This document shows positions 1 through 35,344 of a stretch of DNA of 35,344 bases, one piece after another. The notes under the pieces were generated by a model that saw only the letters and a program-made list of their open reading frames with translations, was not told where the DNA came from and did no database searches. The stretch covers positions 1 to 35,344 of the IMG/VR virus record IMGVR_UViG_3300031823_000019; one strand, 5' to 3'. The stretch is from a virus. Each line of letters begins with the position of its first letter. Position 1 is the stretch's first letter. A program made the translations under genes and the position numbers.

Positions 1-119
1 AGGCCGTACTTGGAACATCTGTTCGTTCCCAAAGAGGCGCGAATGCGCCAGGAAGTGAGAGCCAGATGCCGCAAGAAAAACAAACACCGTTTGAAATCGT
101 AAAACAGTATTTCGTTGAT
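1..119. repeat. Left copy of the 119-bp terminal direct repeat (circle junction)
   Basis: Bases 1-119 are identical to 35226-35344. No inverted repeats or other end signature accompany the match. Coding frames run through it, so it is best read as the overlap of a circular assembly rather than a biological long terminal repeat. The non-redundant length would be 35,225 bp. Confidence 0.93.
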
Positions 120-8830: not shown

Positions 8831-8855
8831 GAATCACCAAGTCACGAATCACGAG
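8821..8855. repeat. Heptamer repeat array (CACGAATCAC)
   Basis: The array consists of CACGAGTCACGAATCAC, a short interruption, then CACGAATCACGAG. It lies between the 8868 hairpin and the 8830 GTG, which it supplies. It is related to the arrays at 7086, 15372, 26351 and 26864. Confidence 0.85.
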
Positions 8856-8867
8856 GTCAGCTTTACC

Positions 8868-8897
8868 GCAAAAGCGCCCCTTACCGGGGCCTTTTGC
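8868..8897 (-). promoter_or_regulatory. Stop-hairpin-RBS element
   Basis: GCAAAAG.CCCC pairs with GGGG.GCTTTTGC around a five-base GGTAA-type loop. It abuts the stop codon of the 8898-9155 gene with no gap. There is no U-tract on the minus strand. Confidence 0.78.
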
Positions 8898-9155
8898 TCA
8901 GTCATTCGACTCGCACTTCGTTCCCGGTATCACCGACGTCCGCCCGCACTGGCGATTGTATTCCTCCACGATGTCGATATGCTTGGCGTCGTGCGGCAGT
9001 TTATCCAGGCGCAACAGGCTGAGGGCGAATTCCTCGAAGTGCGTGCAGCACGCCTTCACCGGACCCCAGAAATGCGAAGCGGGCACGGGACAATCGGTTC
9101 CGTCCGCGCACCGGAAATCGCATTTCGGAGGAAACTGAAATCCTGTGTCACCCAC
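8898..9155 (-). CDS. Cys-rich small hypothetical protein, 85 aa, GTG start
   Basis: GTG at 9155 lies downstream of a GGGG-rich stretch. The protein carries Cys at several positions (C-D-F-R-C, D-C-P-V, A-C-C-T-H-F) and a late C-G, consistent with a metal-binding or disulfide-bonded fold. Residues 40-75 are helical. No signal peptide and no known family. The 74-base gap between it and the fibre gene at 9230 shows no further signal. Confidence 0.62.
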   Translation of the reverse strand: MGDTGFQFPPKCDFRCADGTDCPVPASHFWGPVKACCTHFEEFALSLLRLDKLPHDAKHIDIVEEYNRQCGRTSVIPGTKCESND

Positions 9156-9229: not shown

Positions 9230-11095
9230 TTAGAAGCATTTCCAAACGGTGCCATTTGAAAATGCCAGCGCGGTGTTCGTACTCCCGCCCACGCAGGTTT
9301 GGCCTTCTGCGGCCACTGCCGTTGAATCCGAAACCACTCTTTGCTGGCCGGCATTTCCCGCCGCCGCGGCTGGCAGTGCGCTCACCGTAGTCGCCGTCGT
9401 GGAGAAAAAACCCTGCACTGCCATAGCCGCCACACCGGATGATCCCGTGTGATTGATATTCAGAGTGGAACTCGGATTAGCTCCTGTTCCAAGTGTGTTT
9501 GTCGAAGTCCAACTATCAAAAGCGGTGGCTGAGCCTGTCCAGTATTGGCCTTTCAAGGAAAAGATGGGGGATGAACGATTCGCCCCACTCGTGGCGGCCG
9601 TTAGATTCGTTAGTTCATGGTTCCCGGCGAACCTGTTTTGCCCACCTGCGGAGTAAAAAGACCAATCGTTCGCGCCCGCGCCAGATTGATTCGCGTCGGC
9701 AGAATAGTACACCGCAGTCAAGGCTGCTTTGCCCACGTTCGTATGCCCCATGAAATCGTTGGTGGAACCAAAGTAGTTTGCCCAGATCCCGATGTTGTTG
9801 GAACCTGTTCCGAGAAATACTTCGCCGAGAAAGTCGGTCATTAATTGTATGGAGCTGGGTGTCGTAAAGTTCTGGGCTGTCCCGTACACGCCGATCAGTG
9901 TTTTGGTTATCCCCGGAGAAAAATTGATGCCTGCACCTGCGAAGCCTTGCACCCACGGAGCTCCGATCGTCGGAGACTGAATATCATTGATCGCGATGGC
10001 ATATTCCCCGTTGATTCCGTTTGTAGGATTGTCCGTATCGCCGATCGCGATCAGGTTCAGGGCCGTCGGTGACCAGTTCGTTCCATGGCCGTAGGCGATA
10101 AACTGGCCTGCCGCGAATCCGTAATTGGCATAGGGCAAATTCCCCGATCCGGCTGGCTTGATGGTTTTTTCCACCAGCGTTGTGTTTGCGGAATCGAATG
10201 CCAGAGCCGCGCCATAATTATTGATATTGGGAATCGTCCACACATCGGCCCACGACATGTTCCCGACGTGCAGCCCCGGCTGAATCGAAGAATATCCGCT
10301 CTCGTTGAACGTCAGGAGGTTGGGGACGCTCACTGCTGGCGTTCCCGTGTCGGTATAGCTTGGCGATGTGACCGTAGCCAGGTATCCGATGGCCACCGGG
10401 CTGATTGAGACGAATACGTCATAGGCCGTCGCGTTGGGAACCGGAATCCATGCGATCACGTTTTTATTGATTGAACTGAGCGTGGCCGTTCCGGTTGCCG
10501 TTGTTCCCTGTGCCGAGGTTGCGATATCGACCGTTCCATTCCGCGCGATGATCGTGTATCCCCAAGTGCTACTTCCCGAAACAGCAGGCGTGACAGTAGG
10601 AGCTGCGAACGGAGGTCCGGCTACGCCCGTGAGCGCAATACCCCCACTCGCTAAAGCAAAGGTTGTTAGCTTGGGCGCCAAGACATTCAGCGATGCCGTA
10701 AGGTTCACGATCGAGCTACCGCTGATCGTGGTACCAGTGCTCGTGAATGTGAATGATTGCGGGCCAGTACCGAGCGGAGCTTGAATCGTGGCGGCTGCGG
10801 AATCGATGGTGATTTGCCATTGCGCGGATCCTGGAGTGATTTGCGCCACGTCTCCGAAATTCACGCTGAACTTTCCCGCAGAATCGAGCTGCACTGGGCC
10901 GACTTGGCCCGAATAGGGCGTTCCACCCAGCGTATAGCCGCCCGAAGATGCGGGCACGAGGATTGCGCTCATGATTGCGCCGGCGTAGGGGATGCCATTT
11001 GGATCAGTGACCGTGGCTGTGACGGTAGTGAACTGCGCAAACGCGGGCGAAGTCCAAGCGATTGCCAGAAACAAAAGCGGCACCCATCGTTTCAT
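9230..11095 (-). CDS. Exported fibre/spike-like protein, 621 aa, paralogue of the next gene upstream
   Basis: A GAGGG site lies nine bases before ATG 11095. Residues 1-21 are a Sec signal peptide ending AFA|Q. Residues 22-150 are a beta domain shared with the 11108-12712 protein (VTDPNGIPYAGA, GYTLGGTPYSGQVGPVQLD, SAGKFSVNFGDV, PQSFTFTSTGTTISGSS). The middle is Gly/Thr/Asn-rich with beta-helix character. The C-terminus (VSALPAAAAGNAG, then VVSDST, GGSTN, NGTVWKCF) matches the closing domain common in phage fibres. It is a probable receptor-binding or surface spike protein. Export is unusual for a dsDNA-phage fibre and suggests assembly at or outside the cytoplasmic membrane. Confidence 0.85.
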   Translation of the reverse strand: MKRWVPLLFLAIAWTSPAFAQFTTVTATVTDPNGIPYAGAIMSAILVPASSGGYTLGGTPYSGQVGPVQLDSAGKFSVNFGDVAQITPGSAQWQITIDSAAATIQAPLGTGPQSFTFTSTGTTISGSSIVNLTASLNVLAPKLTTFALASGGIALTGVAGPPFAAPTVTPAVSGSSTWGYTIIARNGTVDIATSAQGTTATGTATLSSINKNVIAWIPVPNATAYDVFVSISPVAIGYLATVTSPSYTDTGTPAVSVPNLLTFNESGYSSIQPGLHVGNMSWADVWTIPNINNYGAALAFDSANTTLVEKTIKPAGSGNLPYANYGFAAGQFIAYGHGTNWSPTALNLIAIGDTDNPTNGINGEYAIAINDIQSPTIGAPWVQGFAGAGINFSPGITKTLIGVYGTAQNFTTPSSIQLMTDFLGEVFLGTGSNNIGIWANYFGSTNDFMGHTNVGKAALTAVYYSADANQSGAGANDWSFYSAGGQNRFAGNHELTNLTAATSGANRSSPIFSLKGQYWTGSATAFDSWTSTNTLGTGANPSSTLNINHTGSSGVAAMAVQGFFSTTATTVSALPAAAAGNAGQQRVVSDSTAVAAEGQTCVGGSTNTALAFSNGTVWKCF

Positions 11096-11107: not shown

Positions 11108-12712
11108 TCAGTTCGTAATGTGATAACTGATGCACAAAGGATTCACTGCGGGGGTGGCGCCGCTGGTGATTTGAAAGCTGGTGCCCGCTGTTCTAGCCGT
11201 GATTGCCAAGCCTCCAATCAGTGTGGCCAGCGTGCTGTTGCACGTCACGCTCAATTTAGTGCCCAGGGTATCGTCAGGCGTCACATCGATTTGGCTGTTT
11301 GCGGTCGTGGCCGTAGTATTCACGGTAACCGTAGTGGCTCCTGCGGCTATGACCACGCTGCCTGCCGCCGCAGCAGCACAAACCGCAGGGCTGGCAGAAC
11401 TGCTGCAGTTCGTTTTTGTGGCATACAGGGCCGAAGAAAATATCCCTTGGTCAGTTATGGTGGATGTCGCCGGCGTGTTCATGCCGGTGCCGATTAACAC
11501 ATCCATGATCGTCATCTGATTATTGGATGACCCCGTGATTCCGCTCACCGCATTTCCGATTACGAGATTTCCGCTGCCGGTCGTCAGGAGATTCGTGATG
11601 CCGAGGACGATGTTGGAGCTTCCTGTCGTCAGTCCCGATGCTGCAAGCTCTCCGACAAATGTGTTGTTGCCGCCTGTCGTCATTCCCTGTCCTGCACCAG
11701 TACCGATCAGTGTGTTGTTTCCCGTCGATGGTCCGGTGAACCCTGCATTTTGGCCAACAGCGACGTTGTTATCTGAGGTCGCATTCTGCAAAGCCCCGTT
11801 TCCTACAGCAGTGTTTTTTTGATTCGCTGCACCTAAGCTAAACAGAGCCCCTACGCCCACCGCTGTGTTGTCTTGACCCGTAGTTGTGAGATTCAAAGCG
11901 AAAGGGCCTACGGCCACATTGTTAGGCCCCGTCGTGAGAGCTGAAATGGTGCTAGGTCCTACTCCGAGGTTGTTATTTCCCGCCACTGGGCCGGGGCTGA
12001 GAAAGTTCGCACCGTTGATTTGATAGATCCCGTTGGTTGGGATCGTCATGTTCGGAGTGACAAAGGTGAACCCGGCATTGCCGCCGATGGTATTCGATGC
12101 CGTACCGAAAGCCACCTGAGTGTTGGCGATCGCGCCCGCGATCGTGGCGCCGCTGGTGTTGCATGTGGGGCAGGAAATCGTGCCCGTCGCGATAATCGGG
12201 CTGGGCGTGACTACTATGGGAGCCGACGCCGCGATGCTGGTAACAGTGCCCGACCCGCCGGTGGCGAAATTCGTGAGCTTTGGCGCGAGGGCATTCAGCG
12301 CTGTGGTAAGGCTTACGGGCGAGCTTCCGCTGATCGTGGTGCCCGTGCTCGTGTACGTGAACGATTGAGGGCCAGTGCCCAGCGGCCCGGCGATCGTGGC
12401 TGCGGTGGAATCGATGGTGATTTGCCACTGCGGGCTGCCGGGAGAAATCAGCGTCACGTCCCCGAAATTCACGGTGAATTTTCCGGCGGAATCGAGCGTC
12501 ACCGGGCCAATGCGCCCGGAGTAGGGCTGTCCGCTGAGCGTGTATCCGCCGCCGGTGCTGGGCACCAGTACCGCATTCAGTACCGCGCCGGCGTAGGGGA
12601 TGCCGTTGGGATCCTGCACCGAGGCCGCCGTGGTGGTGAACTGCGCTCGCGCTGCAGGCGCAAAAAGAAACGCCCCGGCAAGTACCAGGGCGACACTGAG
12701 AATTTTTCGCAT
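11108..12712 (-). CDS. Exported fibre-like protein with YadA-head-like repeats, 534 aa
   Basis: AAGGGAAG precedes ATG 12712. A signal peptide ends ARA|Q at residue 23/24. The N-terminal 150-residue domain is paralogous to that of the 9230-11095 protein. Residues about 240-390 hold roughly nine repeats of the form N-x-(A/L)-(V/I)-G-x-x-A (NNVAVG, NTAVG, NTAVG, NNTLIG, NNTFVG, SNIVLG, GNLVIG), typical of left-handed parallel beta-roll heads in trimeric adhesins and some phage fibres. The C-terminal domain has two or more Cys and Ala/Val/Thr strands. It is a probable trimeric adhesin or spike. The stop lies 12 bases before the paralogue, so the pair looks like a local duplication that then diversified. 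Confidence 0.85.
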   Translation of the reverse strand: MRKILSVALVLAGAFLFAPAARAQFTTTAASVQDPNGIPYAGAVLNAVLVPSTGGGYTLSGQPYSGRIGPVTLDSAGKFTVNFGDVTLISPGSPQWQITIDSTAATIAGPLGTGPQSFTYTSTGTTISGSSPVSLTTALNALAPKLTNFATGGSGTVTSIAASAPIVVTPSPIIATGTISCPTCNTSGATIAGAIANTQVAFGTASNTIGGNAGFTFVTPNMTIPTNGIYQINGANFLSPGPVAGNNNLGVGPSTISALTTGPNNVAVGPFALNLTTTGQDNTAVGVGALFSLGAANQKNTAVGNGALQNATSDNNVAVGQNAGFTGPSTGNNTLIGTGAGQGMTTGGNNTFVGELAASGLTTGSSNIVLGITNLLTTGSGNLVIGNAVSGITGSSNNQMTIMDVLIGTGMNTPATSTITDQGIFSSALYATKTNCSSSASPAVCAAAAAGSVVIAAGATTVTVNTTATTANSQIDVTPDDTLGTKLSVTCNSTLATLIGGLAITARTAGTSFQITSGATPAVNPLCISYHITN

Positions 12713-12733
12713 AGCTTCCCTTTCAGTCTTACC

Positions 12734-12763
12734 GCGAAAGCGCCCCTTACCGGGGCCTTTCGC
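12734..12763 (-). promoter_or_regulatory. Stop-hairpin-RBS element
   Basis: GCGAAAG.CCCC pairs with GGGG.GCTTTCGC around the GGTAA loop. It abuts the stop of the 12764-13930 gene and precedes the AAGGGAAG ribosome site of the 12712 gene. It is identical at the core to the copies at 13943 and 18474. Confidence 0.82.
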
Positions 12764-13930
12764 TTACTGGCTTGAAACCGTGATGTCCATAGCGGCGCTG
12801 GCCTTCACGCAGATTCCGTTGTTGAACAGCACGTCGTAAATTTCGGGCGCTGCGGGAAACGTGGTGGTCGCCGTAATCACGGAAACCACGTTCGTGGCGG
12901 GCGTGCCCGTGCAGCTTCCGGATGCCAGGTCAAACAAGCTGATCGTGCCCGCCGCGGGCGTGCCCACCACGACGGTATGCACCACGCCCGGGCCAGCCTT
13001 CACGACGGTGGCCGTCGTGCCCGTGATGTGCGTGTAGGAATTCGTCTGCGATGTGCCCGGCGTAAGCAAAACGTAATCGAAATCGTAATTCGCAGTTGAG
13101 GCTCCACCGCTGCCATAGGCAATGAAGAGCGTGGCGCATGGCGTCGGAGGCACAGCGAATGTTTGGAGTACGTTGATCGTGGTGGCGAGATTGAAACTAA
13201 ATCCGGAACCTAGTCCGTTCGCATCCTGGCAGGTAACGCCGATCGTGGAACCTGCGGGTCCGGCAGCGGTCACAAATTCAAAATAAAGAGTGCCATAGGA
13301 ATTTCCAAACGGCGGAACGAAGGAACTGGTGGTGTAGTTGGTATTCGCCGGCGCTACCGACGCGATCGTTTTATCGATCTGCGAGAACTGGTAACTGCCC
13401 GTCGTCGCGTTGAATGTCGCCTGCGATCCTGAATAACTTAGAAGGAAAGTTCCCGTCGATGCGGGCAGGCACGTGACCGAAACTTGAACTGTGGGAAAAT
13501 ATCCCGTACCGGAAAGCGCTGGTCGATTCCCTGCCACGGCGGGCGTCGGAATTGTGGACATATCCGAAATCACGAATACGTTGCCGGCAAAGTCCACGCC
13601 TTGAATCTGCATCTGCAGATTCGTCACGCTGGCGTTGGGCACTACGTACGCGTAATGCTGCGTTTGGTTTCGGTTCTGCACCACGAACGTCTGGGCAGTG
13701 CCCGTGCAGGCTGTGCCAGCGGGGGCTAGCGTTTGCTGCGTGGGCACGATCGAGACGGGATCTTGCGCATGAGCCGATGAAGCGACCAAGGCGAAAAGGA
13801 TGCAGACCGTCAGCTTCGCCAGGCGCTTTTTCATCGAGGAGATGAATTGCCGCGGCGTCTTTTTATTCGCGAGTGCCTTGCGTAGTCCGCGAATCTGCGC
13901 CGCTTTGGGGATATTGAGTTTTCGTGCCAT
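12764..13930 (-). CDS. Exported beta-sandwich protein with extended N-terminal region, 388 aa
   Basis: ATG 13930 has TAAGGAAG directly after a hairpin element. Residues 1-32 are basic (RGLRKALANKKTPRQF) and precede a standard signal peptide (residues 33-55, ending AHA|Q), giving an unusually long n-region. A second ATG at 13834 would give a normal signal peptide but has no ribosome site. The mature part is Thr/Ser/Ala-rich beta-sandwich sequence with several Cys, like surface or fibre proteins. It forms a trio of exported proteins with the two fibres downstream, all cut before Gln. The Arg/Lys-rich start could be an extended signal that slows export, or a separate DNA- or membrane-binding segment. 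Confidence 0.78.
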   Translation of the reverse strand: MARKLNIPKAAQIRGLRKALANKKTPRQFISSMKKRLAKLTVCILFALVASSAHAQDPVSIVPTQQTLAPAGTACTGTAQTFVVQNRNQTQHYAYVVPNASVTNLQMQIQGVDFAGNVFVISDMSTIPTPAVAGNRPALSGTGYFPTVQVSVTCLPASTGTFLLSYSGSQATFNATTGSYQFSQIDKTIASVAPANTNYTTSSFVPPFGNSYGTLYFEFVTAAGPAGSTIGVTCQDANGLGSGFSFNLATTINVLQTFAVPPTPCATLFIAYGSGGASTANYDFDYVLLTPGTSQTNSYTHITGTTATVVKAGPGVVHTVVVGTPAAGTISLFDLASGSCTGTPATNVVSVITATTTFPAAPEIYDVLFNNGICVKASAAMDITVSSQ

Positions 13931-13942
13931 GACTTCCTTACC

Positions 13943-14002
13943 GCGAAAGCGCCCCTTACCGGGGCCTTTCGCTTGACTTCTTTACCGCGAAAGGCCTTTC
14001 GC
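13943..14002 (-). promoter_or_regulatory. Double stop-hairpin-RBS element, one full and one collapsed copy
   Basis: A full hairpin (13943-13972) is followed by a perfect 16-bp palindrome GCGAAAGGCCTTTCGC at 13987-14002. The palindrome is the same element with its CCCC-loop-GGGG part deleted. It touches the stop of the 14003 gene. The pair suggests duplication followed by loss of the stem top. Confidence 0.8.
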
Positions 14003-14716
14003 TCACCACGCAACCGGGTTATCGGCCGCTTCGAACTGATCGTCCCAGCTTCGCGGATAGAAATAGCCGCTCAGTAGCGCGCCGGCATTGATGTTCGTGG
14101 GTAACGCGTTGTTTCTGAGCACCCAGGCGATCACGTCATTTTCAAAAATACGGATGCCGGAAATCAGCGAGGGCTGATTGATCAGCCCATACGAAGCCTG
14201 CACATTTTGGTAGTTTCGCTCGGCATAGCCGCCGGTATTCACGCCGGCGCCGGGATTGCGCACGATCTGCCACACGGCATCTCCGGAGAAATCCGCCCAG
14301 GCGCCGCCCACGATCACATTGGCGATCCACTTGATCACGCCATTGCGGCCTGGCGGACACGTGACGGACACCACCGTGGTGAACACGGTGGCGCTGATCG
14401 CGGGCACCGCAATGCCCGCCGCGTTGCGGAAGGATTCAGAGTCCGGCGGCTCGATCAGCCAGGGCGCAGCGATCAGCCGCGTACTGCGCTGCACCTGCTG
14501 CATCACGCCCTGCAAATCATTAACCGAGGAAATTAGCGGATCGTCCGTGGTCGCAGGCGCCGGCGGGGGACGCAGGAGAATCTTCGGGCCAAGGTTCACA
14601 TCCGCGCGGCGGCTGTACGGCCACGTAGATGCGCGAATCGAAGAGGCTGCGGCGTCCGTCACGTTCGGTTCTCCAAATGCGTCCGAAGGATCGGCGAAAA
14701 GTTTGTCATACGACAT
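14003..14716 (-). CDS. Candidate jelly-roll virion protein, 237 aa
   Basis: GGGAGTAG (containing the previous stop) sits before ATG 14716. The N-terminal 60 residues are disordered and Pro-rich. From about 90 onward, alternating strands (VFTTVVSVTCPPGRNGVIKW, SGDAVWQIVRN, ISGIRIFENDVIAWVLRNN, LLSGYFYPRSWD) follow the order and closing 'G-Y-F-Y-P' strand I associate with single jelly-roll capsid or spike proteins. No homologue is named; this is pattern-based. It sits in the block of four beta-rich proteins proposed as the shell. Confidence 0.72.
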   Translation of the reverse strand: MSYDKLFADPSDAFGEPNVTDAAASSIRASTWPYSRRADVNLGPKILLRPPPAPATTDDPLISSVNDLQGVMQQVQRSTRLIAAPWLIEPPDSESFRNAAGIAVPAISATVFTTVVSVTCPPGRNGVIKWIANVIVGGAWADFSGDAVWQIVRNPGAGVNTGGYAERNYQNVQASYGLINQPSLISGIRIFENDVIAWVLRNNALPTNINAGALLSGYFYPRSWDDQFEAADNPVAW

Positions 14717-14719
14717 AAG

Positions 14720-15223
14720 CTACTCCCGCCACCAGGTCGAGTATCCGAACATGCACAGGTCCACGATGTTCGTGTGGGTGCCGTCCAGATTTTGAATCTT
14801 GCACACCACGGGAGATCCCGCGGCGATGAAGTGCGGGAAGCGAATCAGTCCCGGCTCGAGCGCTGTGGGCGCGAAGTTGGCTTGATTCTGGCCGTACTTC
14901 GAATATTTGTAGGCGCCCACTTCCTCTGTGATTTGAAAGCGGAAACTGCCCTGGCCGTTGATCGAATCCCGCGATCCGCGGCCCATGATGGCCGTGACCC
15001 AGAAATCCTCGCTCACGGTCACGCGGGTCAAATCGGTTTGCCCGGAGGTGAGCGTGAGATCCGGGAACTGATACCAGTAGAGGTGCGCGCCCTGGAGCGA
15101 GAGACGCGCCCATTGCGGAATCGTCCACGCAGGCGAAGCCATCTTGCGCTTCACCAGCCAGCCGCCCAGCGTGGGATTCATCGGCACGCCGGGCACGCGA
15201 CCCTGTGTCCACGGATTAATCAT
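14720..15223 (-). CDS. Candidate jelly-roll virion protein, 167 aa
   Basis: ATG 15223 overlaps the stop of the 53-aa membrane gene (ATGA); an upstream ATG at 15235 is less likely. The strand pattern includes LTRVTVSEDFWVTAIMG, GSFRFQITEE, LIRFPHFIAAGSPVVCKIQN and NIVDLCMFGYSTW. The 'P-hydrophobic-x-x-G-S-x-hydrophobic-x-N-L...F-G-Y' ending resembles the last strands of small jelly-roll capsid proteins. The length is close to the small major capsid protein of P23-77-like viruses, but that is a size comparison only. Confidence 0.7.
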   Translation of the reverse strand: MINPWTQGRVPGVPMNPTLGGWLVKRKMASPAWTIPQWARLSLQGAHLYWYQFPDLTLTSGQTDLTRVTVSEDFWVTAIMGRGSRDSINGQGSFRFQITEEVGAYKYSKYGQNQANFAPTALEPGLIRFPHFIAAGSPVVCKIQNLDGTHTNIVDLCMFGYSTWWRE

Positions 15224-15381
15224 GTTTTCTTCCACACTTCAAATCGCATAAAGACGTAGACGAAACAACTTCCACCAATTAATGCGCCCCACTGTCCCCA
15301 GAACCGAACTACGAACGCGCTCCACATCGCGGCTATTACAATGGTCAGTATCCACGCCGCGATTTTGTCGCCACGAGTCAC
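15220..15381 (-). CDS. Two-span small membrane protein, 53 aa, GTG start
   Basis: GTG 15381 (GTG ACT CGT) lies in a heptamer array and reads into two hydrophobic helices (residues 7-26, AAWILTIVIAAMWSAFVV; residues 31-46, WGALIGGSCFVYVF), ending FEVWKKT. Its TGA overlaps the next ATG. The absence of charged residues in the spans and the coupled position show that it is real. It could be a virion-membrane component, as it sits between two capsid candidates, or a holin. Confidence 0.72.
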   Translation of the reverse strand: MTRGDKIAAWILTIVIAAMWSAFVVRFWGQWGALIGGSCFVYVFMRFEVWKKT

Positions 15382-15395
15382 GACTCACGAATCAC
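15372..15395. repeat. Heptamer repeat array
   Basis: CACGAGT-CACGACT-CACGAAT-CAC is a three-unit array just after the stop of the 15400 gene. It supplies the GTG start of the 53-aa membrane gene on the minus strand, as the 8821 array does for the 8830 gene. Confidence 0.85.
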
Positions 15396-15399
15396 GCTT

Positions 15400-15885
15400 T
15401 CAGTTCTGGCTCGGCAGCGCGCCGAGCTGCGCGGCCATGGCTGCCGGGTACAGCTTGTAACCCCAGAAATCGATCTGCACGGTGTTGGCGGCGCCGCTCG
15501 AATCGACCGTGGTCACTTTGTACGATCGCTTTTTCGGCATGAGCTGCGGAATCATTCCCGCCGGGAAAGGATTCTGCGCCGTGCCGCAAAAGTTCAGGAT
15601 GTTCACCGCGGCGCTCTGCCAGGCCAGGCCGCCGGCGCTGCCCTCCGTCACCTGAATGGAAAGCGCGCTGCTCGTGAACGTGGCCATCAGCATTAGGAGC
15701 TGGAAATCGGCGTCGGAGTCAATCTGGAACGATTGGTTTTGCGTGTCGTTCCCCGCGTGCGTCAGATTGACGATGTAGTGAAACAGCTTGGCGATATAAA
15801 GCTGCCCGCCGAGCTCCATGATTTGAGGGTCTTGCTGCAGCGAATTCAGTTGATCCTGCGTTAGTGCCGGCGCTTGCGTTGACAT
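15400..15885 (-). CDS. Candidate jelly-roll virion protein, 161 aa
   Basis: GGGGGAA is six bases before ATG 15885; the longer upstream frame lacks an RBS. A helical N-terminal 45 residues (LTQDQLNSLQQDPQIMELGG) precedes beta strands QSFQIDSDADFQLLMLMATF, ALSIQVTEGS, CGTAQNPFPAG, KRSYKVTTVDS and NTVQIDFWGYKLYP. The 'G-T-x-Q-x-P-F-P ... V-x-x-x-F-x-G-Y-K-hydrophobic' pattern matches one I recall in many phage virion proteins with jelly-roll folds. It is the second smallest of the capsid candidates. Confidence 0.74.
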   Translation of the reverse strand: MSTQAPALTQDQLNSLQQDPQIMELGGQLYIAKLFHYIVNLTHAGNDTQNQSFQIDSDADFQLLMLMATFTSSALSIQVTEGSAGGLAWQSAAVNILNFCGTAQNPFPAGMIPQLMPKKRSYKVTTVDSSGAANTVQIDFWGYKLYPAAMAAQLGALPSQN

Positions 15886-16109
15886 CGAAATTCCCCCACG
15901 TCGCGCCGAAGCGCCCGTTTTGTTGGGCGCGAAGGCGGATCGCCACCATCCGGTGTAATGCGTGCGGGCCGACACGCCTTCGCGTCAACGGCCCGCAATG
16001 TCGGAACATGAGTTGGGAATCGTAGCTGCTCGATCTGCCGGTTCCCCCGCCGCAACCCTCTCAAGTTGCGAAAAAGTCCGCTTCGAGACCGAACAGCTAC
16101 GACTTCCAA
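15886..16109 (-). promoter_or_regulatory. Structured 224-bp gap between two capsid candidates
   Basis: No gene is convincing here. A nested hairpin at about 15903-15937 pairs GCGCCC with GGGCGC inside outer CGCC/GGCG arms. A long-range inverted repeat pairs CGTAGCTG (16021-16028) with CAGCTACG (16094-16101). One or both could adjust expression of the 15885 gene relative to the 254-aa capsid candidate upstream. A separate promoter is not evident. Confidence 0.45.
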
Positions 16110-16874
16110 CTAGAGCACCGCACGCGCTTTCTGCCCCTCGAGATACACCCACGCGTTGATACCGGTGCCGATCGGCACGGTATTGTTCGCGTTGGTGGTG
16201 AAGCCCGTGGACTGCGCCCAGGCCGCCAGCGTCGGATCGACTTCCACTTTGAACGCCTGTTGCTGGGCGATCAAAATGCCGTCGATGTTCGGGAACTGGT
16301 CGATACCCGGAGTGCCGTCGCAACCGGGATCCGTGAGCCGGAATCCCTGATGCTCGCTCGGCATGCCGTTGCCCACCGGACCGATGATGGTATTGGCCGC
16401 CGTGGCGCCGAATTGCTGCGCCCAGATGCCGCCGCCCGCCGGAAGCTTGAGAAAGTGCGCGATCACAAAGAACGACTTCGTGGAGATGAAGAAGTTCACG
16501 ATCGTCTGGCTTCCGAACTTGATGGCGTCCGTCTGGTTGCAGAGGTTATCCAGCACGCAGGTGATGCCCCGGACCAACATGCGTTCGGGAGCCTGCAACT
16601 GGTTCGGCTGCACCATGCTCGTCATCTGCAGGGTTTTGGCCACGGTGGCGCCGCCGGTGATGGTGAAGTTGTTGTTCTGCACGATCGAGAACAGCGTTTG
16701 CTTCACTACCGCCGTGGATACGGCCACGCCGTAGTAATCCCATTCCGGCTGAACCACGAAGTCGCCGAGCCCGGCCGCCAGCATGTTCCGCAGGCGGAAC
16801 CGGGGACGTCCGATTTCGTGAGCCGAAATTTCCTGCAAATGCGCAAAGCGTTTTGTGTTCAGATTTCTTGCCAT
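16110..16874 (-). CDS. Candidate major capsid protein (beta-rich, jelly-roll-like), 254 aa
   Basis: AAGGAAG lies nine bases before ATG 16874, below a strong double hairpin. The basic N-terminal arm (ARNLNTKRFAHL) could contact membrane or DNA. From residue 40 the protein is nearly all beta: VVKQTLFSIVQNNNF, ERMLVRGITCVLD, SQTIVNFFISTKSFFVIAHF, GILIAQQQAFKVEVD, GINAWVYLEGQKARAV. The closing 'W-x-Y-L-E-G-x-K-x-R-x-V' strand is like those of jelly-roll major capsid proteins. It is the largest member of the block and has the most prominent leader structure, so it is my first choice for major capsid protein. No recognised family was found. Confidence 0.66.
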   Translation of the reverse strand: MARNLNTKRFAHLQEISAHEIGRPRFRLRNMLAAGLGDFVVQPEWDYYGVAVSTAVVKQTLFSIVQNNNFTITGGATVAKTLQMTSMVQPNQLQAPERMLVRGITCVLDNLCNQTDAIKFGSQTIVNFFISTKSFFVIAHFLKLPAGGGIWAQQFGATAANTIIGPVGNGMPSEHQGFRLTDPGCDGTPGIDQFPNIDGILIAQQQAFKVEVDPTLAAWAQSTGFTTNANNTVPIGTGINAWVYLEGQKARAVL

Positions 16875-18460: not shown

Positions 18461-18473
18461 TGACTTCCTTACC

Positions 18474-18503
18474 GCGAAAGCGCCCCTTACCGGGGCCTTT
18501 CGC
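18474..18503 (-). promoter_or_regulatory. Stop-hairpin-RBS element
   Basis: This has the same 30-bp core as the copies at 12734 and 13943 (GCGAAAG.CCCC/GGGG.GCTTTCGC, loop GGTAA). It starts two bases after the stop of the 18506 gene and is followed by TAAGGAAG and ATG 18460. Confidence 0.82.
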
Positions 18504-18505
18504 TC

Positions 18506-26905: not shown

Positions 26906-28381
26906 ATGAGCCGCACGTCCGCCACCGCCGCGCAGACCGCTCCCGAACTGCCGCACAACATCGAAGCGGAACGCGCCATCCTCGGCGGCTTGATGCTGGA
27001 CAACTCGGCACTCGATTCCGTGGCCGATAAGCTGGTCCCCGATTCTTTCTACCACGTCAACCATCGCAAGATTTACGAAGCCATCCTCGCGCTGCACGAG
27101 GATGAATTGCCGATGGACGAAATCCACGTGATCGATTGGATGTCTCAGGCCAAAACGCTGCATTTCCTTCCCGGCGGCCCGGCGGAAGTTTCCGCGCTCA
27201 CGGACGGGCGCCCCACGATCGCCAACCTCGGCCACTACGCGGACATCGTGCAATCGAAGGCGCGGCTGCGCAAACTGATCAAGGAAACGGACTTCATACA
27301 GAAGCGCGCGTTCGACGGATCCTGGGACATCGAGAATCTGGAAGAGGAGCTGCGCAACTCGATCGAGCACAACGCCATCGTGCCGGCGAACGGCAATGGA
27401 AACGGCAACGGGCACCTCGGTTCGTCGCTGATGGAATTCCTGAAAATGGAATTCCCGCCGCAGGAGCATTTGATCGAGGGTTTAATTCCCCGCGGCGCTT
27501 CGGTGATGATCGTGGCGCTGCCGCACCGCATGAAAAGCTTTTTTACTACCGGGCTGGCCCTGGCCGCTTCCGTGGAGACGGACCGCGCCATGGGCAAACT
27601 GGAAGTGAAGAAAGCGATCCGCACCATGCTGGTGCAGGTCGAGGACCCCGAGCAAATCGTGCAGAAGCGCATCCGGGATTTCATGTCCACGTCGCAATTC
27701 CTGAACTGCAATCCGGACAACGTGTGGGTGGTGAAGCGTAAGGATTTTACCGGCTTCACGCCGCAGTGGTGTAAAAAGCTGGTGAAGCAGGCGCTGGAAT
27801 TCAAGGCCGACCTGATCGTCCTGGACGTGCTGCGCCGCATTTTCGAGGGCCACGGGGATCTGAACAGCCCCACGGACACATCGAAATTCCTGGAAATGAT
27901 CGACGCCATCCGGGACGTGACCGGCGCGGCCATCGTGCTCGTCCACCACGAAAACAAGAAAGACGCGGACCTGATGAACGCCGCCGCCGGCAGCTACAAT
28001 TTCCCCGGCTGGGCCAACGTGATGATCCAGTTTAAGCGCAAGACCATGACGGGCAATATCTCCCACGTGGAAATCGAAGTGGACAACAAACTCGGCCCCA
28101 GCGTCGATCCTATGCGCATGATCCTGGATTTGGCGTCCACGAACCCCGTGCGGCTCGAGTCCCTGGAAGATGGCGACGGCCTGGCCAACGCGATCGAAGA
28201 AATGGACACGGAGTGGAATATCCGCACGCTGATGGAAGTGATGAACATCTCCCGCACCAGCGCCCAGCGGCGGATCAAGGCCTGGCTCCTGCAGCACCTG
28301 ATCCGCAAAGTAAGCGGCGGAAAAAAAGGCCGCGGCGGCCTGGCGATGTACACCGCGTCCGGCATCTCGGAAGAACTGTGA
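26906..28381 (+). CDS. Replicative helicase: DnaB N-terminal domain fused to RepA/AAA_25-like ATPase core and winged helix
   Basis: This is the probable hexameric replication helicase. Residues 14-125 match the DnaB N-domain (PHNIEAERAILGGLMLDN, FYHVNHRKIYEAI). Residues 175-385 form a RecA-fold core of the RSF1010 RepA type: Walker B LIVLDVLRR at 303-311 and the VHHENKK segment at 346-352. The Walker A region (ALPHRMKS, 204-211) keeps only Lys-Ser and lacks the usual glycines. A Gly/Asn linker (161-170) joins the two. A C-terminal winged helix (ISRTSAQRRIKAWLLQHL, about 444-462) may bind the origin. The iteron region lies 530 bp downstream. The degenerate P-loop means ATP use should not be assumed. 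Confidence 0.88.
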   Translation: MSRTSATAAQTAPELPHNIEAERAILGGLMLDNSALDSVADKLVPDSFYHVNHRKIYEAILALHEDELPMDEIHVIDWMSQAKTLHFLPGGPAEVSALTDGRPTIANLGHYADIVQSKARLRKLIKETDFIQKRAFDGSWDIENLEEELRNSIEHNAIVPANGNGNGNGHLGSSLMEFLKMEFPPQEHLIEGLIPRGASVMIVALPHRMKSFFTTGLALAASVETDRAMGKLEVKKAIRTMLVQVEDPEQIVQKRIRDFMSTSQFLNCNPDNVWVVKRKDFTGFTPQWCKKLVKQALEFKADLIVLDVLRRIFEGHGDLNSPTDTSKFLEMIDAIRDVTGAAIVLVHHENKKDADLMNAAAGSYNFPGWANVMIQFKRKTMTGNISHVEIEVDNKLGPSVDPMRMILDLASTNPVRLESLEDGDGLANAIEEMDTEWNIRTLMEVMNISRTSAQRRIKAWLLQHLIRKVSGGKKGRGGLAMYTASGISEEL

Positions 28382-28389
28382 GGCTGGCA

Positions 28390-28851
28390 ATGTTGGAATC
28401 GATTTTGAATCGTCTCTTCGGCGAGCCGGAACAAATCAACGGGCACGAACGCTGCGAAACGTATCTTTGGCGCTGGACTGTCGCCAAATGGCGCGGGCGC
28501 GGCATTTACCTGCATCACTTCGTTGGCGACGATTGGTCGCGCGACCTACACGATCATCCAAAGCGGTTTATCTCGATCGGGCTCTGGGGCTGGTATATCG
28601 AGCAAACGCCGTGGCTCGCTGACGTTCCCGGCTCATGGCGTTTCAAAAAATATCAGGCACCGTGGATTCGTTCCTTCCCCGCTACACACATTCACAGACT
28701 CGCCGTCCCTTCGAAGAACTGCTGGACCCTCGTGATCGTGCTAAAGCCAGTCCGCGAATGGGGCTTCTGGCATGAGCGGAAATTCATCCCCTGGAAGCGT
28801 TACGTTGAGGGCCAGGACGGCATCGCCGACAAGATGAAAGCTTGCGACTGA
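28390..28851 (+). CDS. Cupin-like phage protein, 153 aa
   Basis: GAGG lies eight bases before ATG 28390, right after the helicase stop. YLHHFVGDDWSRDLHDHP (residues 41-58), a central GWYIE strand, a later FPATHIHRLAV and WTLVIVLKPVREWGFW form the small cupin barrel seen in many phage genomes. The H-D-H and T-H-I-H histidines are the probable metal ligands. The substrate is unknown. Confidence 0.82.
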   Translation: MLESILNRLFGEPEQINGHERCETYLWRWTVAKWRGRGIYLHHFVGDDWSRDLHDHPKRFISIGLWGWYIEQTPWLADVPGSWRFKKYQAPWIRSFPATHIHRLAVPSKNCWTLVIVLKPVREWGFWHERKFIPWKRYVEGQDGIADKMKACD

Positions 28852-29388: not shown

Positions 29389-29643
29389 ATGGCGAAGAAA
29401 GAGCAAACACCAAGAAAGACTCCGAGCGGCGAATGGATCTACATCACAATTTCGGCCACGCTGGCGGAACGGGAAGCCTACCGGCAAATTTCCGCGCTCG
29501 ATTCGCGCTCAGTGTCGTGGTGGATCCGGGACGTGTTGAACCGGGAAGTAGCCAGGCGGAAAGCGAGCTCGAACAATGAAATCGAACCTGAGAGCGCGAA
29601 TCCAACTGTGGGCGTGGAGGCAGTTTCTCCGGATCGGGCATGA
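29389..29643 (+). CDS. Ribbon-helix-helix-like DNA-binding regulator with frameshifted C-terminus, 84 aa
   Basis: GGTGAA lies eight to nine bases before ATG 29389. After a basic tail, strand IYITISATL (residues 17-25), helix AEREAYRQISAL and helix SVSWWIRDVLNREVAR form an Arc/MetJ-type ribbon-helix-helix. It is probably a repressor of the adjacent strong promoter and origin. Compared with the second copy of this DNA at about 29781, a one-base deletion near 29552 changes the C-terminus from REVAQAESELEQ to REVARRKASS and onward, so the ORF runs 68 bases into the next gene. Confidence 0.75.
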   Translation: MAKKEQTPRKTPSGEWIYITISATLAEREAYRQISALDSRSVSWWIRDVLNREVARRKASSNNEIEPESANPTVGVEAVSPDRA

Positions 29644-29685
29644 TCTCGTTTGGAAAGCGGACGAATGGTTTCAGGCCCAGGAAGT
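29522..29685. repeat. Direct repeat copy 1 of a cassette duplication
   Basis: From GGATCCGGGACGTG to the end of the DLVWKADEWFQ codons this segment matches 29781-29944 with few substitutions and one indel. It contains the end of the regulator gene and the first 35 codons of the following gene. Confidence 0.88.
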
Positions 29686-29839
29686 TGTATTACAAATTTC
29701 AGTGCAGCCTACGTCTGGAGCGCAAGGGATCGCTCGGCAAGCCAGACGTGCGGGCGCACTCGATCGCCTCGGCGTGAATTGGATCCGGGACGTGCTCAAC
29801 CGGGAAGTGGCCCAGGCGGAAAGCGAGCTCGAACAATGA
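29576..29839 (+). CDS. Chimeric 87-aa ORF made by the duplication
   Basis: Residues 1-35 (KSNLRARIQLWAWRQFL onward) equal the start of the 29836 gene. Residues 36-60 are a degraded relic of the 29990 gene (ending ALDRLGVN). Residues 68-87 are the intact tail of the regulator (WIRDVLNREVAQAESELEQ). It starts inside the regulator gene and its TGA overlaps the next ATG. It may be expressed, but its structure is what a tandem duplication with decay would leave. Confidence 0.5.
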   Translation: MKSNLRARIQLWAWRQFLRIGHDLVWKADEWFQAQEVVLQISVQPTSGAQGIARQARRAGALDRLGVNWIRDVLNREVAQAESELEQ

Positions 29840-29944
29840 AATCCAACCTGAGAGCGCGAATCCAACTGTGGGCGTGGAGGCAGTTTCTCCGGATCGGGCA
29901 TGATCTCGTTTGGAAGGCCGACGAGTGGTTCCAGGGCGAAGAAG
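29781..29944. repeat. Direct repeat copy 2 of a cassette duplication
   Basis: Second copy of 29522-29685. It keeps the unshifted regulator tail. It is preceded (29751-29779) by a 28-base segment that also occurs at about 30187-30215 in the 29990 gene. Confidence 0.88.
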
Positions 29945-30330
29945 TAAAACTGAGGGAAGCGCACATAGAGTGCGCGGGAGAATTTAGACATGAAAGCCAC
30001 AATCGAGAGCACGAGCAAGACGCTGATCTGGCAAGGGCTGAATTTCCGCGTTTGGGAAGGCGTGAGCGCCAAGGGGATCAAATTTGTGGCGCTGGTGAAC
30101 CGGCTGGAGACGGCGGACGCGGAGCAGATGCGTCTGTTGATCGCGGAGCTCGCGGGAGCGTCGAAAGACCCGGAATCCACGACGGCGGGCGCGCTCGATC
30201 GCCTCGGCGTGAATCCGCCGCCCGCCGACTACGCGCCAAAACCGGAGCCGCCGACTTCGACCGCCGCATAGTGGCCCGGCGCACTCAGTTCGCCGGGATG
30301 GTACTGGCTCGTTCACAGGAGACGATATGA
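29836..30330 (+). CDS. Basic/aromatic small protein; frame stays open over the nested 29990 gene to 164 codons
   Basis: ATG 29836 overlaps the previous stop. The N-terminal 50 residues (RIQLWAWRQFLRIGHDLVW, DEWFQGEEVKLREAH) are protein-like and conserved between the two cassette copies. After 29990 the frame becomes Arg/Gly/Glu-rich while another gene is read in the +1 frame. The long stop codon overlaps ATG 30327. The N-terminal part is probably real. The C-terminal 110 residues may be overprinted or a shadow. Confidence 0.5.
   Translation: MKSNLRARIQLWAWRQFLRIGHDLVWKADEWFQGEEVKLREAHIECAGEFRHESHNREHEQDADLARAEFPRLGRRERQGDQICGAGEPAGDGGRGADASVDRGARGSVERPGIHDGGRARSPRRESAARRLRAKTGAADFDRRIVARRTQFAGMVLARSQETI
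29990..30271 (+). CDS. Hypothetical protein, 93 aa
   Basis: GGGAGAA lies eight bases before ATG 29990. Residues 3-45 are strands (KTLIWQGLNFRVWEGVSAKGIKFVALVNRLE), then a helix (AEQMRLLIAELAGA) and a Pro/Thr-rich disordered tail. A broken relic of this gene exists at 29695-29779. No family was recognised. It is an early gene downstream of the regulator. Confidence 0.75.
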   Translation: MKATIESTSKTLIWQGLNFRVWEGVSAKGIKFVALVNRLETADAEQMRLLIAELAGASKDPESTTAGALDRLGVNPPPADYAPKPEPPTSTAA

Positions 30331-31816: not shown

Positions 31817-32257
31817 ATGCATCCGACTGAGAAGGGTTTCACGCTTCCTACGTCAGCGCAAGCGAGTCACGCGGGCGAATCCGAGCCTGCCTGGATTCGA
31901 GACAATCAAATCCCGGGCGTGGCCTTCGCGCCGGAGCTGGACGCGCGCGTGCCGGCGAATTCCTGGATCGCGGAAATCTGCGAAGGGGAAACGTCCTACT
32001 GCGAGCATTGCGGCGCGGGCTTTCCCATGTGGCCCACGAAGGCTTGGGCGGACCATCTCATCACGGCGCACGGCGATGCGCTCACAATTCAGGCGCGCAC
32101 CGGCTCGTCGCTCCTCTGCGCGGACGAGCTGAACGAGTGCCAAACACAATTCTTCGCCATGATGTTTCAATCCAGGGTAAGCCTGCGGCGCCGCGCCTGG
32201 CAGCTCGGCTACGCCAGCGTGAAGCAAGACGAACGGCGAATCCATATTCCGAATTGA
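31817..32257 (+). CDS. C2H2-type zinc-finger-like protein, 146 aa
   Basis: GAAGGGAT lies before ATG 31817. Residues about 62-85 read CEHCGAGFPMWPTKAWADHLITAHG, that is C-x2-C ... H-x4-H, a classic zinc-finger spacing. The C-terminal part is helical and basic (SRVSLRRRAWQLGYASV). It is a possible DNA-binding regulator or antirestriction-type factor. The function is not known. Confidence 0.74.
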   Translation: MHPTEKGFTLPTSAQASHAGESEPAWIRDNQIPGVAFAPELDARVPANSWIAEICEGETSYCEHCGAGFPMWPTKAWADHLITAHGDALTIQARTGSSLLCADELNECQTQFFAMMFQSRVSLRRRAWQLGYASVKQDERRIHIPN

Positions 32258-33319: not shown

Positions 33320-33323
33320 GAGA

Positions 33324-33375
33324 GCAAAAGGCCCCGGCTCGCACGGCGAGTGCGACAAAAACGAGGCTCTTTTGC
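33324..33375 (+). promoter_or_regulatory. Stop-hairpin element before the ATPase
   Basis: GCAAAAG pairs with CTTTTGC at the base; the middle carries an inner CTCGC.CGAG-type hairpin. It begins four bases after the stop of the 33319 gene and ends seven bases before ATG 33383. It directly precedes an ATG with only GCGGTAA as a possible weak ribosome site, so the hairpin may help position ribosomes. Confidence 0.75.
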
Positions 33376-33382
33376 GGTAAAC

Positions 33383-35344
33383 ATGATCCTACTCGGCTGG
33401 GAAATCGGGACCGGCAAGCGGGTGGAAATCCCGGAGACGGGGCATCTGGCTTGGTTTGGCCAGACGCAGCTATCCGGGAAAACCACGGCGCTCGAGGCTA
33501 TCGCCTATCGCGGTGAACTGAGGGCCGTCGCGTTCATCACGAAGCAGGGCGAGGGGGGATTCTTGACGGGACGCATGATCCCCCCATATTTCTCCGAACC
33601 GACCAACGACGAAGAGCAGCCGCTATGGCGCTGGGTCAAGTCCATCCTAGAAGCGTCCCAACAGCGGAAACTAAATTTTGAAGAGGCTTGGATAATTCGG
33701 TGCTGCGAGGATCCCCGTTCCGCCAAAACGCTCAAAGATGTGCACGAAAACATCAAGGCACTGCTCGGTGGCGAGGGCGGTTACGTCGAAAAGGGCCGCG
33801 GCAAGAAAAAGAAAAAAGAGTGGAAGTACACGCGCAAGCCTGTGAGCGGAATCAACGCCGGCGTCTACACGTCCCTGAAAGCGTATTTCGACATTGTGAT
33901 GCCGCAACTCGCGCGCCTGCCGTACACGAAGCGGCTCGAGCTGGGCGACGGGCTGAACGTGATGGACCTGCGCGAATACGCCATGGAAACCCAGGCGCTC
34001 GTGATCCGCAGCGTGATGGAGTGGGTCTACCAACATGAAAAAGGCGTCCGCGTCATCGTCCCCGAAGCGCAGGATTTTGTCCCGCAAGGGAAAAACTCGC
34101 CGGTGAAGATGGCCTGCGAGACGCTGGTGCGCAAGGCCGGCGCGAACAAAAACTTCATGTGGCTCGATTCGCAGGATATGGCTGCGGTGGACAAGATCAT
34201 GCTGCGCGCCTGCTCGATCGTGGGGATCGGCGTGCAGACCGAAGGCCATGAAATCGAGCGCAGCCTCGCCGGGCTCTTCACGCCGCAATTGAAACCCGTG
34301 GACATCGCGCGCCTGAAAATCGGCGAATTCTTTGTGCGCACGCCCGAAGCCAAAGTCTCCAAAGTCTACGTCCAGCCCGCCTGGATGGAGAGCGAGCTCC
34401 ACGCCCAAGCCATCGCCAAGGGCGAGGAGCGAGTCGAAAGCGCAAGGCAAATGCTCCGCGCGTTCAAGGATGCCCGCAAAGCGCCCCCCGTTTACCCTGA
34501 GCGAGTTAAACGCGAAGGGCACCAACTGAAACAAATTCTCAGTCAGGAGTCACCCGCCGATGAAGAAGAATCAGCCGGTAAACGAACAGTTGCCACCGAC
34601 GAGACAGAATCAATATTCACAAAAGAACGTCGAAGTCTGGACGGACAGCAACGGCAAAATGATTCTGATCTTCGCGATTCCGCGCGCCATGGTGATAGAG
34701 GGGATTCGTCGGTCCAAACGTCGGATGCTCGACTTCGAGATGGAATTTACGCGGATGGAGGCATTCGATCTACTCAGGGCCATCGCCTGCCATCCGTACA
34801 CGATGGAGATGATGACCAATCCACCGATGACGCTAATCCATCACGCGAACAAGAAGAAATCGAAACCTCGTCCCAAATCCTAAAGGAGCCGCCCGATGTC
34901 GAAGAGAGTGAATCCCTTCCGCCAGTTGACGCCGAGACAACAGCGCGCGATCAAGGCGCGAATCGAGCGGATCGCCCCGGAGATACAGATGGGCATGTCG
35001 GCGCAGACGCTGATCGTGGCGCTGTTCGAGGATTTGGCAACCGTCCCGAGGATGCAGCCGAAACGGAATCGTCCCCGCAATCCCAACTAACACCCCTCGA
35101 AGCAATGCTTCTCGGGGTAAAGGAGCCTGGCAAACATGAAACCCAAATTGAGGACCCCGGCGATACCCGTATCGCCGGAAGTCCTGAACGAACTGAAAGC
35201 GCAAGCGAAACAGCACCTATACATGAGGCCGTACTTGGAACATCTGTTCGTTCCCAAAGAGGCGCGAATGCGCCAGGAAGTGAGAGCCAGATGCCGCAAG
35301 AAAAACAAACACCGTTTGAAATCGTAAAACAGTATTTCGTTGAT
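33383..35344 (+). CDS. HerA/FtsK-superfamily ATPase, probable genome-packaging motor (continues at 1-758)
   Basis: This is an ATP-driven DNA translocase of the HerA type. A P-loop-like G-Q-T-Q-L-S-G-K-T-T lies at residues 26-35, one residue longer than the usual GxxxxGK spacing. Walker B/glutamate VRVIVPEAQDF is at 222-232. The sensor segment LDSQDMAAVDKIMLRACS at 261-278 is typical of HerA-like motors ('S-Q-x-x-x-x-V-D-K-x-x-L-x-x-C'). A basic loop KKKKKEWKYTRK lies at about 150-161. The ATPase domain ends near residue 385. The frame then runs as an acidic Ser/Asp/Arg-rich linker (about 390-636) and joins the C-terminal domain at 1-758, total 866 aa. HerA-like motors package DNA in membrane-containing tailless phages; no terminase is present to compete for this role. 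Confidence 0.86.
   Translation, partial: MILLGWEIGTGKRVEIPETGHLAWFGQTQLSGKTTALEAIAYRGELRAVAFITKQGEGGFLTGRMIPPYFSEPTNDEEQPLWRWVKSILEASQQRKLNFEEAWIIRCCEDPRSAKTLKDVHENIKALLGGEGGYVEKGRGKKKKKEWKYTRKPVSGINAGVYTSLKAYFDIVMPQLARLPYTKRLELGDGLNVMDLREYAMETQALVIRSVMEWVYQHEKGVRVIVPEAQDFVPQGKNSPVKMACETLVRKAGANKNFMWLDSQDMAAVDKIMLRACSIVGIGVQTEGHEIERSLAGLFTPQLKPVDIARLKIGEFFVRTPEAKVSKVYVQPAWMESELHAQAIAKGEERVESARQMLRAFKDARKAPPVYPERVKREGHQLKQILSQESPADEEESAGKRTVATDETESIFTKERRSLDGQQRQNDSDLRDSARHGDRGDSSVQTSDARLRDGIYADGGIRSTQGHRLPSVHDGDDDQSTDDANPSREQEEIETSSQILKEPPDVEESESLPPVDAETTARDQGANRADRPGDTDGHVGADADRGAVRGFGNRPEDAAETESSPQSQLTPLEAMLLGVKEPGKHETQIEDPGDTRIAGSPERTESASETAPIHEAVLGTSVRSQRGANAPGSESQMPQEKQTPFEIVKQYFVD
34560..34883 (+). 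CDS. 107-aa protein nested in the +1 frame of the ATPase linker
   Basis: AGGAGT lies 11 bases before ATG 34560. After a polar N-terminus come strands NVEVWTDSNGKMILIFAIP, basic helix RAMVIEGIRRSKRRML and helix MEAFDLLRAIA, with a Met-rich segment and a Lys-rich tail: a normal hydrophobic core, unlike a shadow. The ATPase frame over the same DNA is low-complexity. Function unknown; a small DNA-binding or virion protein is possible. Confidence 0.78.
   Translation: MKKNQPVNEQLPPTRQNQYSQKNVEVWTDSNGKMILIFAIPRAMVIEGIRRSKRRMLDFEMEFTRMEAFDLLRAIACHPYTMEMMTNPPMTLIHHANKKKSKPRPKS
34896..35090 (+). CDS. 64-aa basic helical protein nested in the ATPase linker
   Basis: AAAGGAG lies eight bases before ATG 34896, a textbook ribosome site. 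Helices (PRQQRAIKARIERIAPEI, AQTLIVALFEDLA) and a basic, Pro/Asn-rich tail look like a small nucleic-acid-binding protein. It is 12 bases downstream of the previous nested gene and in the same frame. Confidence 0.78.
   Translation: MSKRVNPFRQLTPRQQRAIKARIERIAPEIQMGMSAQTLIVALFEDLATVPRMQPKRNRPRNPN
35136..35327 (+). CDS. 63-aa basic helical protein nested in the ATPase frame, crosses the circle junction
   Basis: AAAGGAG lies 10 bases before ATG 35136. Pro-rich start (PAIPVSPEVL), helix NELKAQAKQHLYMRPYLEHL, then a long Arg/Lys helix (ARMRQEVRARCRKKNKHRLKS). It ends 36 codons into the 230-aa C-terminal domain. Complete here at the right end; its last 34 codons also appear at 1-102. It probably binds nucleic acid. 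Confidence 0.76.
   Translation: MKPKLRTPAIPVSPEVLNELKAQAKQHLYMRPYLEHLFVPKEARMRQEVRARCRKKNKHRLKS
35226..35344. repeat. Right copy of the 119-bp terminal direct repeat
   Basis: Identical to 1-119. It carries the end of the 63-aa nested gene and the start of the C-terminal domain ORF at the matching offset (ATG 35291 equals ATG 66). Confidence 0.93.

Follow-up and report, generated by a model that had tools for sequence, protein, structure and literature searches.

Gene overlap is usually explained by de novo proteins arising on old genes, and in-frame internal starts that give two products from a single ring-ATPase frame are familiar from T7 gene 4A/4B and from the long and short forms of ClpB. 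The closest precedent for the locus described here is the polymerase of hepatitis B virus (HBV), an essential enzyme whose variable, probably disordered inter-domain spacer is overlapped by PreS/S in the same +1 phase; the spacer tolerates insertions, and for part of it the polymerase frame is regarded as the newer reading (PMC9093120). A phage precedent for genes nested in another frame is given by A/B/K of phiX174, where a region of the protein A gene is described, on its codon usage, as a de novo overlapping extension (PMC8227390). Tailless double jelly-roll viruses draw their packaging ATPases from the FtsK-HerA superfamily (PMC5894146), to which those of the PM2/corticovirus group and of PH1 belong.

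The locus lies in a viral contig (IMG/VR record IMGVR_UViG_3300031823_000019; the window is the whole stretch that was analysed, 35,344 nucleotides). Unlike HBV, where one long partner gene overlaps the spacer and where both protein and virus are unrelated to those considered here, the linker in this virus family holds one to three small genes that have their own ribosome-binding sites and vary among relatives, and an in-frame internal start follows. Unlike phiX174, a tiny ssDNA phage with a fixed gene order, the window has a swappable set of genes in the linker of a two-domain motor within a 35-kb genome. The motor fold and likely role are shared with the PM2 and PH1 ATPases; however, the window family has a fused C-terminal coil and winged helix together with the internal start, the recognised packaging ATPases among its viral fold matches are mostly about 200–430 aa long, and its contigs are mostly 34–60 kb, compared with 7–18 kb for viruses of the PM2/PH1 type. 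In contrast to T7 gene 4A/4B and ClpB, the predicted short product would retain the DNA-binding tail but no motor. What would be new relative to all of these is the presence of several small genes at once and their exchange between relatives, in combination with an in-frame internal start; in the literature on internal initiation in terminase genes and on overprinted phage linkers nothing equivalent was found.

The reading proposed here, to which we give a probability of about 0.8, is that one viral gene is read in three ways, as a fused motor, as three small proteins in the +1 frame and as a tail made from an internal start, and that the small genes are exchangeable modules in the linker. Translation from 33383 would give an 866-residue HerA/FtsK-type DNA motor, most likely the packaging ATPase of a tailless virus, in which a long, acidic, probably disordered linker leads from the motor to a coil and then to a winged helix that would bind DNA; starts at three sites in the linker would give three small basic proteins, and a start at the in-frame position 35291 (= 66) would give the coil-winged-helix part by itself. 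One messenger would thus supply motor, three small proteins and a free DNA-binding tail, and we infer that all of these predicted products are made. The most likely guess for the free tail is that it would mix with the motor, recognise the packaging site, or regulate or tune the motor ring, and for the small proteins that they would act as accessory host-takeover or DNA-binding factors.

The fused motor and its relatives

The window contig carries a 119-base terminal repeat and is circular. The motor frame (frame 0) is open from 33320, begins at ATG 33383 and runs across the junction to a stop at 756–758, for a total of 866 codons, the first 654 of which occupy 33383–35344 (+); because positions 1–119 repeat 35226–35344, the frame continues at 120–758. 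This open frame, as claimed in an earlier sequence-only reading, was reproduced. An artefact of assembly at the ends of the circular contig might be suspected of any gene that crosses the junction, but the gene is uninterrupted inside other contigs (for example L003 and L007), and the same architecture is contiguous in ten independent close contigs, with 84% of the tail shared in L007, so that practically no probability remains for an artefact.

The ATPase domain comprises residues 1–356 (33383–34450 (+)), with Walker A GQTQLSGKTT and the Walker B-like strand VRVIVPEA. In an alignment of 39 ATPase domain sequences G32, K33, T34, T35, P227, E228 and Q264 are invariant; the GKT of the P-loop and an acidic strand resembling Walker B are thus conserved, as expected for FtsK-HerA. 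A structural model of the domain (pLDDT 88) has a HerA-like fold, and its top PDB matches are nearly all HerA (E 1.5e-13, TM 0.5–0.6); its best viral fold matches include the corticovirus NTPase, the ATPase of haloarchaeal virus PH1 and A32-like packaging ATPases. The end of the fused frame (66–758 (+)) encodes the coil, at about residues 29–76 of that part, followed by a winged helix, the profile match to which extends over 423–755 (+), residues 756–866 of the fused protein; matches are of Fur, LexA and MecI type, with high probability and weak E-values. The intervening linker is acidic and, judged from its composition, probably disordered.

Other products of the window genome are a DnaB-type helicase, a DNA methyltransferase, an M15 peptidase endolysin, an SLT transglycosylase and a transglutaminase-fold protein. 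Among about 20 proteins scanned with Pfam and PHROGs no convincing terminase or tail gene was found; tail-family matches are confined to the SLT domain, and a match of the methyltransferase to terminase (0.17) is noise. No integrase was seen among the window proteins scanned. The virus is probably tailless, and the likely role of the motor is genome packaging, in view of the viral fold matches of the model, the packaging role of the superfamily and the lack, among the proteins scanned, of a convincingly recognised terminase or tail protein. Pfam and PHROGs recognised no capsid protein in the window genome. At 14003–16874 (-) there are four neighbouring proteins of 171–254 aa, without family matches and with capsid jelly-roll-like sequences, which are candidate major capsid proteins. 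Two large paralogous spike- or fibre-like proteins with similar N-termini are encoded at 9230–11095 and 11108–12712 (-) and contain direct repeats of 287 and 87 nt (74–77% identical). Adjoining the DnaB-like helicase is an ORF at 28381–28851 (+) matching PHROG 4786, annotated as cysteine dioxygenase (E 8e-32), and at 29521–29945 (+) part of the sequence is duplicated in tandem (134 nt at 94%, 33 nt at 91%), which makes two near-copy ends of small ORFs.

Directly upstream of the motor start codon is a leader hairpin (33320–33382 (+); -24.7 kcal/mol, z -2.5). The same hairpin, GCGAAAGGCCCC..GGGGCGCTTTCGC GGTAAG, is present in six copies, two on the plus strand (33320–33382 and 758–830) and four on the minus strand (8855–8898, 12721–12764, 13930–13973 and 18461–18504), with z from -2.5 to -4.1; several stand directly before start codons and one follows the winged-helix stop, and the repeat may serve this virus as a common leader or terminator element. 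A search for RNA families and tRNAs found none.

In about 90 uncultivated viral contigs a single uninterrupted frame encodes ATPase, linker, coil and winged helix. With the ATPase part as query, searches yielded ten close viral contigs (L003–L012, 86–99% identical) and about 80 distant ones (roughly 34–50% identity); the same query found no relatives among cultivated phages, and a search of genome contigs gave a single distant relative, contig L078 of a metagenome-assembled genome. The frame runs from the ATPase into the C-terminal domain in every relative that has a complete, unambiguous gene, a statement that leaves aside L024, where the frame is lost beyond the coil, as well as L028 and L156, which run off their contigs. 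Among the sequences compared, fusion of motor and tail is the rule and not a coincidence of the window genome. Where the winged helix is recognised the linker measures 51–399 aa, that of the window being the longest.

Small genes in the +1 frame of the linker

Three small ORFs lie in the +1 frame of the window linker and together span motor residues 393–649: A (34560–34883 (+), 107 aa, upstream AGGAG-10), B (34896–35090 (+), 64 aa, upstream AAGGAG-7) and C (35136–35327 (+), 63 aa, upstream AAGGAG-10). Their coordinates and their Shine-Dalgarno-like sites are as the sequence-only reading had described them. The predicted proteins are basic and have no Pfam or PHROG match, and the third frame over the same stretch contains about 20 stops. 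Linkers of the window clade hold from one to three such ORFs in sets that vary by virus, always in the +1 phase, in which motor position 1 is small-gene position 3. Of the small overprinted ORFs only one, in a relative (L135, 5082–5309), looks C2H2 zinc-finger-like (Pfam E 0.017), and by eye the window ORF at 31817–32257 resembles it.

Just before the first small ORF stands a frame-0 motif, HQLKQILSQE (34520–34549 (+)), which is similar across the near clade; motifs of this HQLLQxQxQE-like kind recur at this place in near-clade relatives, while the rest of the linker varies. In the proposed reading the first small gene would borrow its Shine-Dalgarno site from the Q-E codons (CAGGAG) of this motor motif, which may double as a binding peptide besides serving as ribosome-binding site.

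ORF length was dropped as evidence for small genes, as the length of the +1 ORFs in the window is within the expectation from synonymous codon shuffling (p = 0.61); the significance of the small genes therefore rests on relatives. The same p value is what favours the idea that the motor frame alone is real and that the small ORFs are accidental openings in sequence rich in E, D, S and R. However, it is the +1 proteins that are conserved. A has a homolog in the linker of L010, with identity of 56% in +1 vs 21% in frame 0; B has homologs in the linkers of L004 and L007 (82–86% in +1 vs 65–74% in frame 0); C has homologs in those of L003, L007 and L012 (0.48 vs 0.30 for the last of these), and a module of family F2 gives 0.40 vs 0.19. 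Other small-ORF families occupy the linkers of L003, L006 and L008–L011, and the motors of the window and L003 are 99% identical, with only C common to both linkers.

Substitutions point in the same direction. In the small frame all three ORFs show a third-position excess (A, P = 0.007; B, P = 0.004; C, P = 0.017), and over seven module families the minimum numbers of changes at small-gene positions 1, 2 and 3 are 264, 252 and 356 (P = 2e-6); taken singly, module D and families F1–F3 show a weak excess (P 0.07–0.18). With relatives aligned and both frames compared by codon position, ATPase substitutions peak at frame-0 position 3 (0.389 vs 0.085 and 0.063), and those of module B at frame-0 position 1, the small-gene third position (0.210 vs 0.089 and 0.077). 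ORFs that are true shadows of frame 0 (L152/L154 and L045/L105) have the opposite pattern, so that the position test tells real small genes from shadows. Given this contrast, the suppression of synonymous change in frame 0 and the existence of stand-alone homologs, accidental openings are highly improbable. We regard the small genes as real, with the inner frame under selection as judged from these comparisons.

The view that every +1 ORF of the relatives is a gene was rejected, as several of these ORFs (L152/L154/L159 and L045/L105/L044, which show a second-position excess) shadow conserved frame-0 sequence of the coil or winged helix. In loci other than that of the window, a number of small ORFs have C-termini that only shadow the conserved coil or winged helix, and ORFs in frame +2, also considered, are mostly high-GC openings.

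The motor frame in turn is kept open through the small genes. Across 32 small ORFs synonymous codon shuffling predicts 31 frame-0 stops and none is seen; with one value for each of the nine families that have shown homologs, 11.9 are expected and none is seen (P = 1e-7). Over the same 1642 codons the remaining frame contains 100 stops. The absence of frame-0 stops against this expectation implies that the linker would be translated and that the openness of the outer, motor frame is selected, with the linker sequence free to change, and on the comparative evidence both frames are under selection. The claim of the sequence-only reading that the stretch is dual-coding with three cistrons is thus borne out by +1 conservation, third-position excess and frame-0 stop avoidance; among relatives whose gene is complete the motor frame has no stop over the linker, and where small ORFs of the window are missing from relatives they are swapped or absent, not decayed. 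In the proposed mechanism selection would keep the motor frame stop-free through the small genes, the linker being mainly their second reading. The +1 phase would be the only workable one, since a frame-0 stop then needs T at the small-gene wobble position before AA, AG or GA, and GC-rich third positions would make this phase tolerable; the other phase is full of stops.

Age of the two readings

Codon usage has served as a criterion for telling old from new overlapping frames (PMC8227390, PMC3744397). In all 16 near-clade overlaps, which include homologs and are not fully independent, codon usage in the small frame is closer to that of the genome's genes than is codon usage in frame 0, with third-position GC of 0.60–0.81 in the small frame vs 0.36–0.52 in frame 0 (Wilcoxon 3e-5). 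Linker length rises with the number of small-gene codons (rho 0.78, slope about 1.3). Moreover, two modules exist elsewhere as single-frame genes: the homolog of module E of L003 is an ordinary gene of L006 (16959–17183 (-)) with a gene on either side, and that of module F of L009 lies away from the linker in L133, L133 being a relative that has no small ORFs and a linker of 103 residues. On these three grounds the reading as small genes seems to have come first, and the acidic linker seems to be derived.

Classical overprinting would reverse this order, with a disordered linker present first and the three small genes born de novo on top of it. Such an origin would suit the short-linker fusions without small ORFs found in most of the distant relatives, the lack of any Pfam family match for the small proteins, and the fact that B and C, searched for in viral contigs, were found at this locus only; but codon usage that is genome-like in the small frame and unlike the genome in the motor frame, growth of the linker with small-gene content and stand-alone homologs of E and F all run against it, and we consider it unlikely, although by some distance the least unlikely of the alternatives. 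The sequence-only reading had suggested a long disordered linker tolerating three genes; the overlap stands, and the direction was probably the reverse.

The simplest reading is that the linker is a shadow of genes placed there, which for A, B and C is extended from other modules, stand-alone copies having been found for E and F only and none for A, B or C. The gene would already have been fused when small genes entered its linker, always in the +1 phase. In a distant clade the small +1 ORFs (families F1–F3) come after the coil instead of before it; an ATPase tree places the before-coil and after-coil kinds separately, and its well-supported branches force at least two changes. We lean somewhat towards a wider view of the locus, in which an essential packaging motor would be a docking place, ordinary genes having repeatedly moved into its linker in the single phase whose GC-rich codons keep the motor frame open, and the linker being a by-product of the parked genes: overprinting by insertion, where the inner gene is the older one and the outer reading the newer. 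The route suggested here is the reverse of the usual one, since genes that already exist would come to sit within another gene, at the price of a longer linker in the host protein. With natural replicates in about 90 genomes, several module families and at least two insertion sites, the locus family permits a direct test of how overlaps begin.

The internal start of the coil-winged-helix part

In the window an in-frame ATG at 35291 (= base 66; 35291–35344 (+) and onward from 66), within the last 37 nt of ORF C, is where a separate coil-winged-helix protein of 230 aa is predicted to begin; the Shine-Dalgarno site of this ATG is weak (AGGA-12). Among relatives the signal is conserved. When residues downstream of the coil start were aligned and the preceding codon was then read, that codon was ATG in 30, GTG in 34 and TTG in 5 of 72 loci, i.e. 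a start codon in 69 (58 before one-residue register slips were allowed in two of five motif groups; the score covers loci with a recognisable motif and leaves out about 20 more divergent ones). Neighbouring positions contain almost no ATG, GTG or TTG. All 34 valines at the site are encoded by GTG, which makes up 42% of Val codons overall, and leucine there is encoded by TTG (about 9%). Upstream, Shine-Dalgarno-like matches of at least 4 bases precede all 69 starts, vs 22% of control codons, and those of at least 5 bases precede 45 of the 69, vs 5% of controls; many sites have a perfect AAGGAGG five to eight bases upstream.

This conserved start with its Shine-Dalgarno-like site predicts a free coil-winged-helix protein beside the motor, so that the locus should yield both, and hence two forms of a packaging motor. 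A residue that alternates among M, V and L as ATG, GTG and TTG is a comparative signature of a hidden internal start, which frame-based annotation would miss.

The sequence-only reading had also raised the case that the motor and the winged-helix protein are separate products, their frames fused by chance or selection. In its strict form, with the linker never read as protein and the frames fused by chance, this case draws on the conserved internal start before the coil and on the position of the last small gene, which in all 13 near-clade or sister loci measured ends 28–49 bases inside the internal start, as in ordinary coupled genes; coupled translation would therefore be possible. Yet none of the complete relatives shows a stop downstream of the ATPase, the avoidance of stops in frame 0 across the small genes goes far beyond chance, and a ribosome on the ATPase would meet no stopping place before the winged helix. 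Separate products only are accordingly very improbable; what survives is a universal fusion kept by selection, with a separate tail predicted in addition, by way of the internal start.

The internal start is missing in L004, and the corresponding codon is ATC in L138/L139 and GTT in L152. The L138/L139 pair may have lost the internal start, and comparison of its two members gives 100% conservation of the small ORF in +1.
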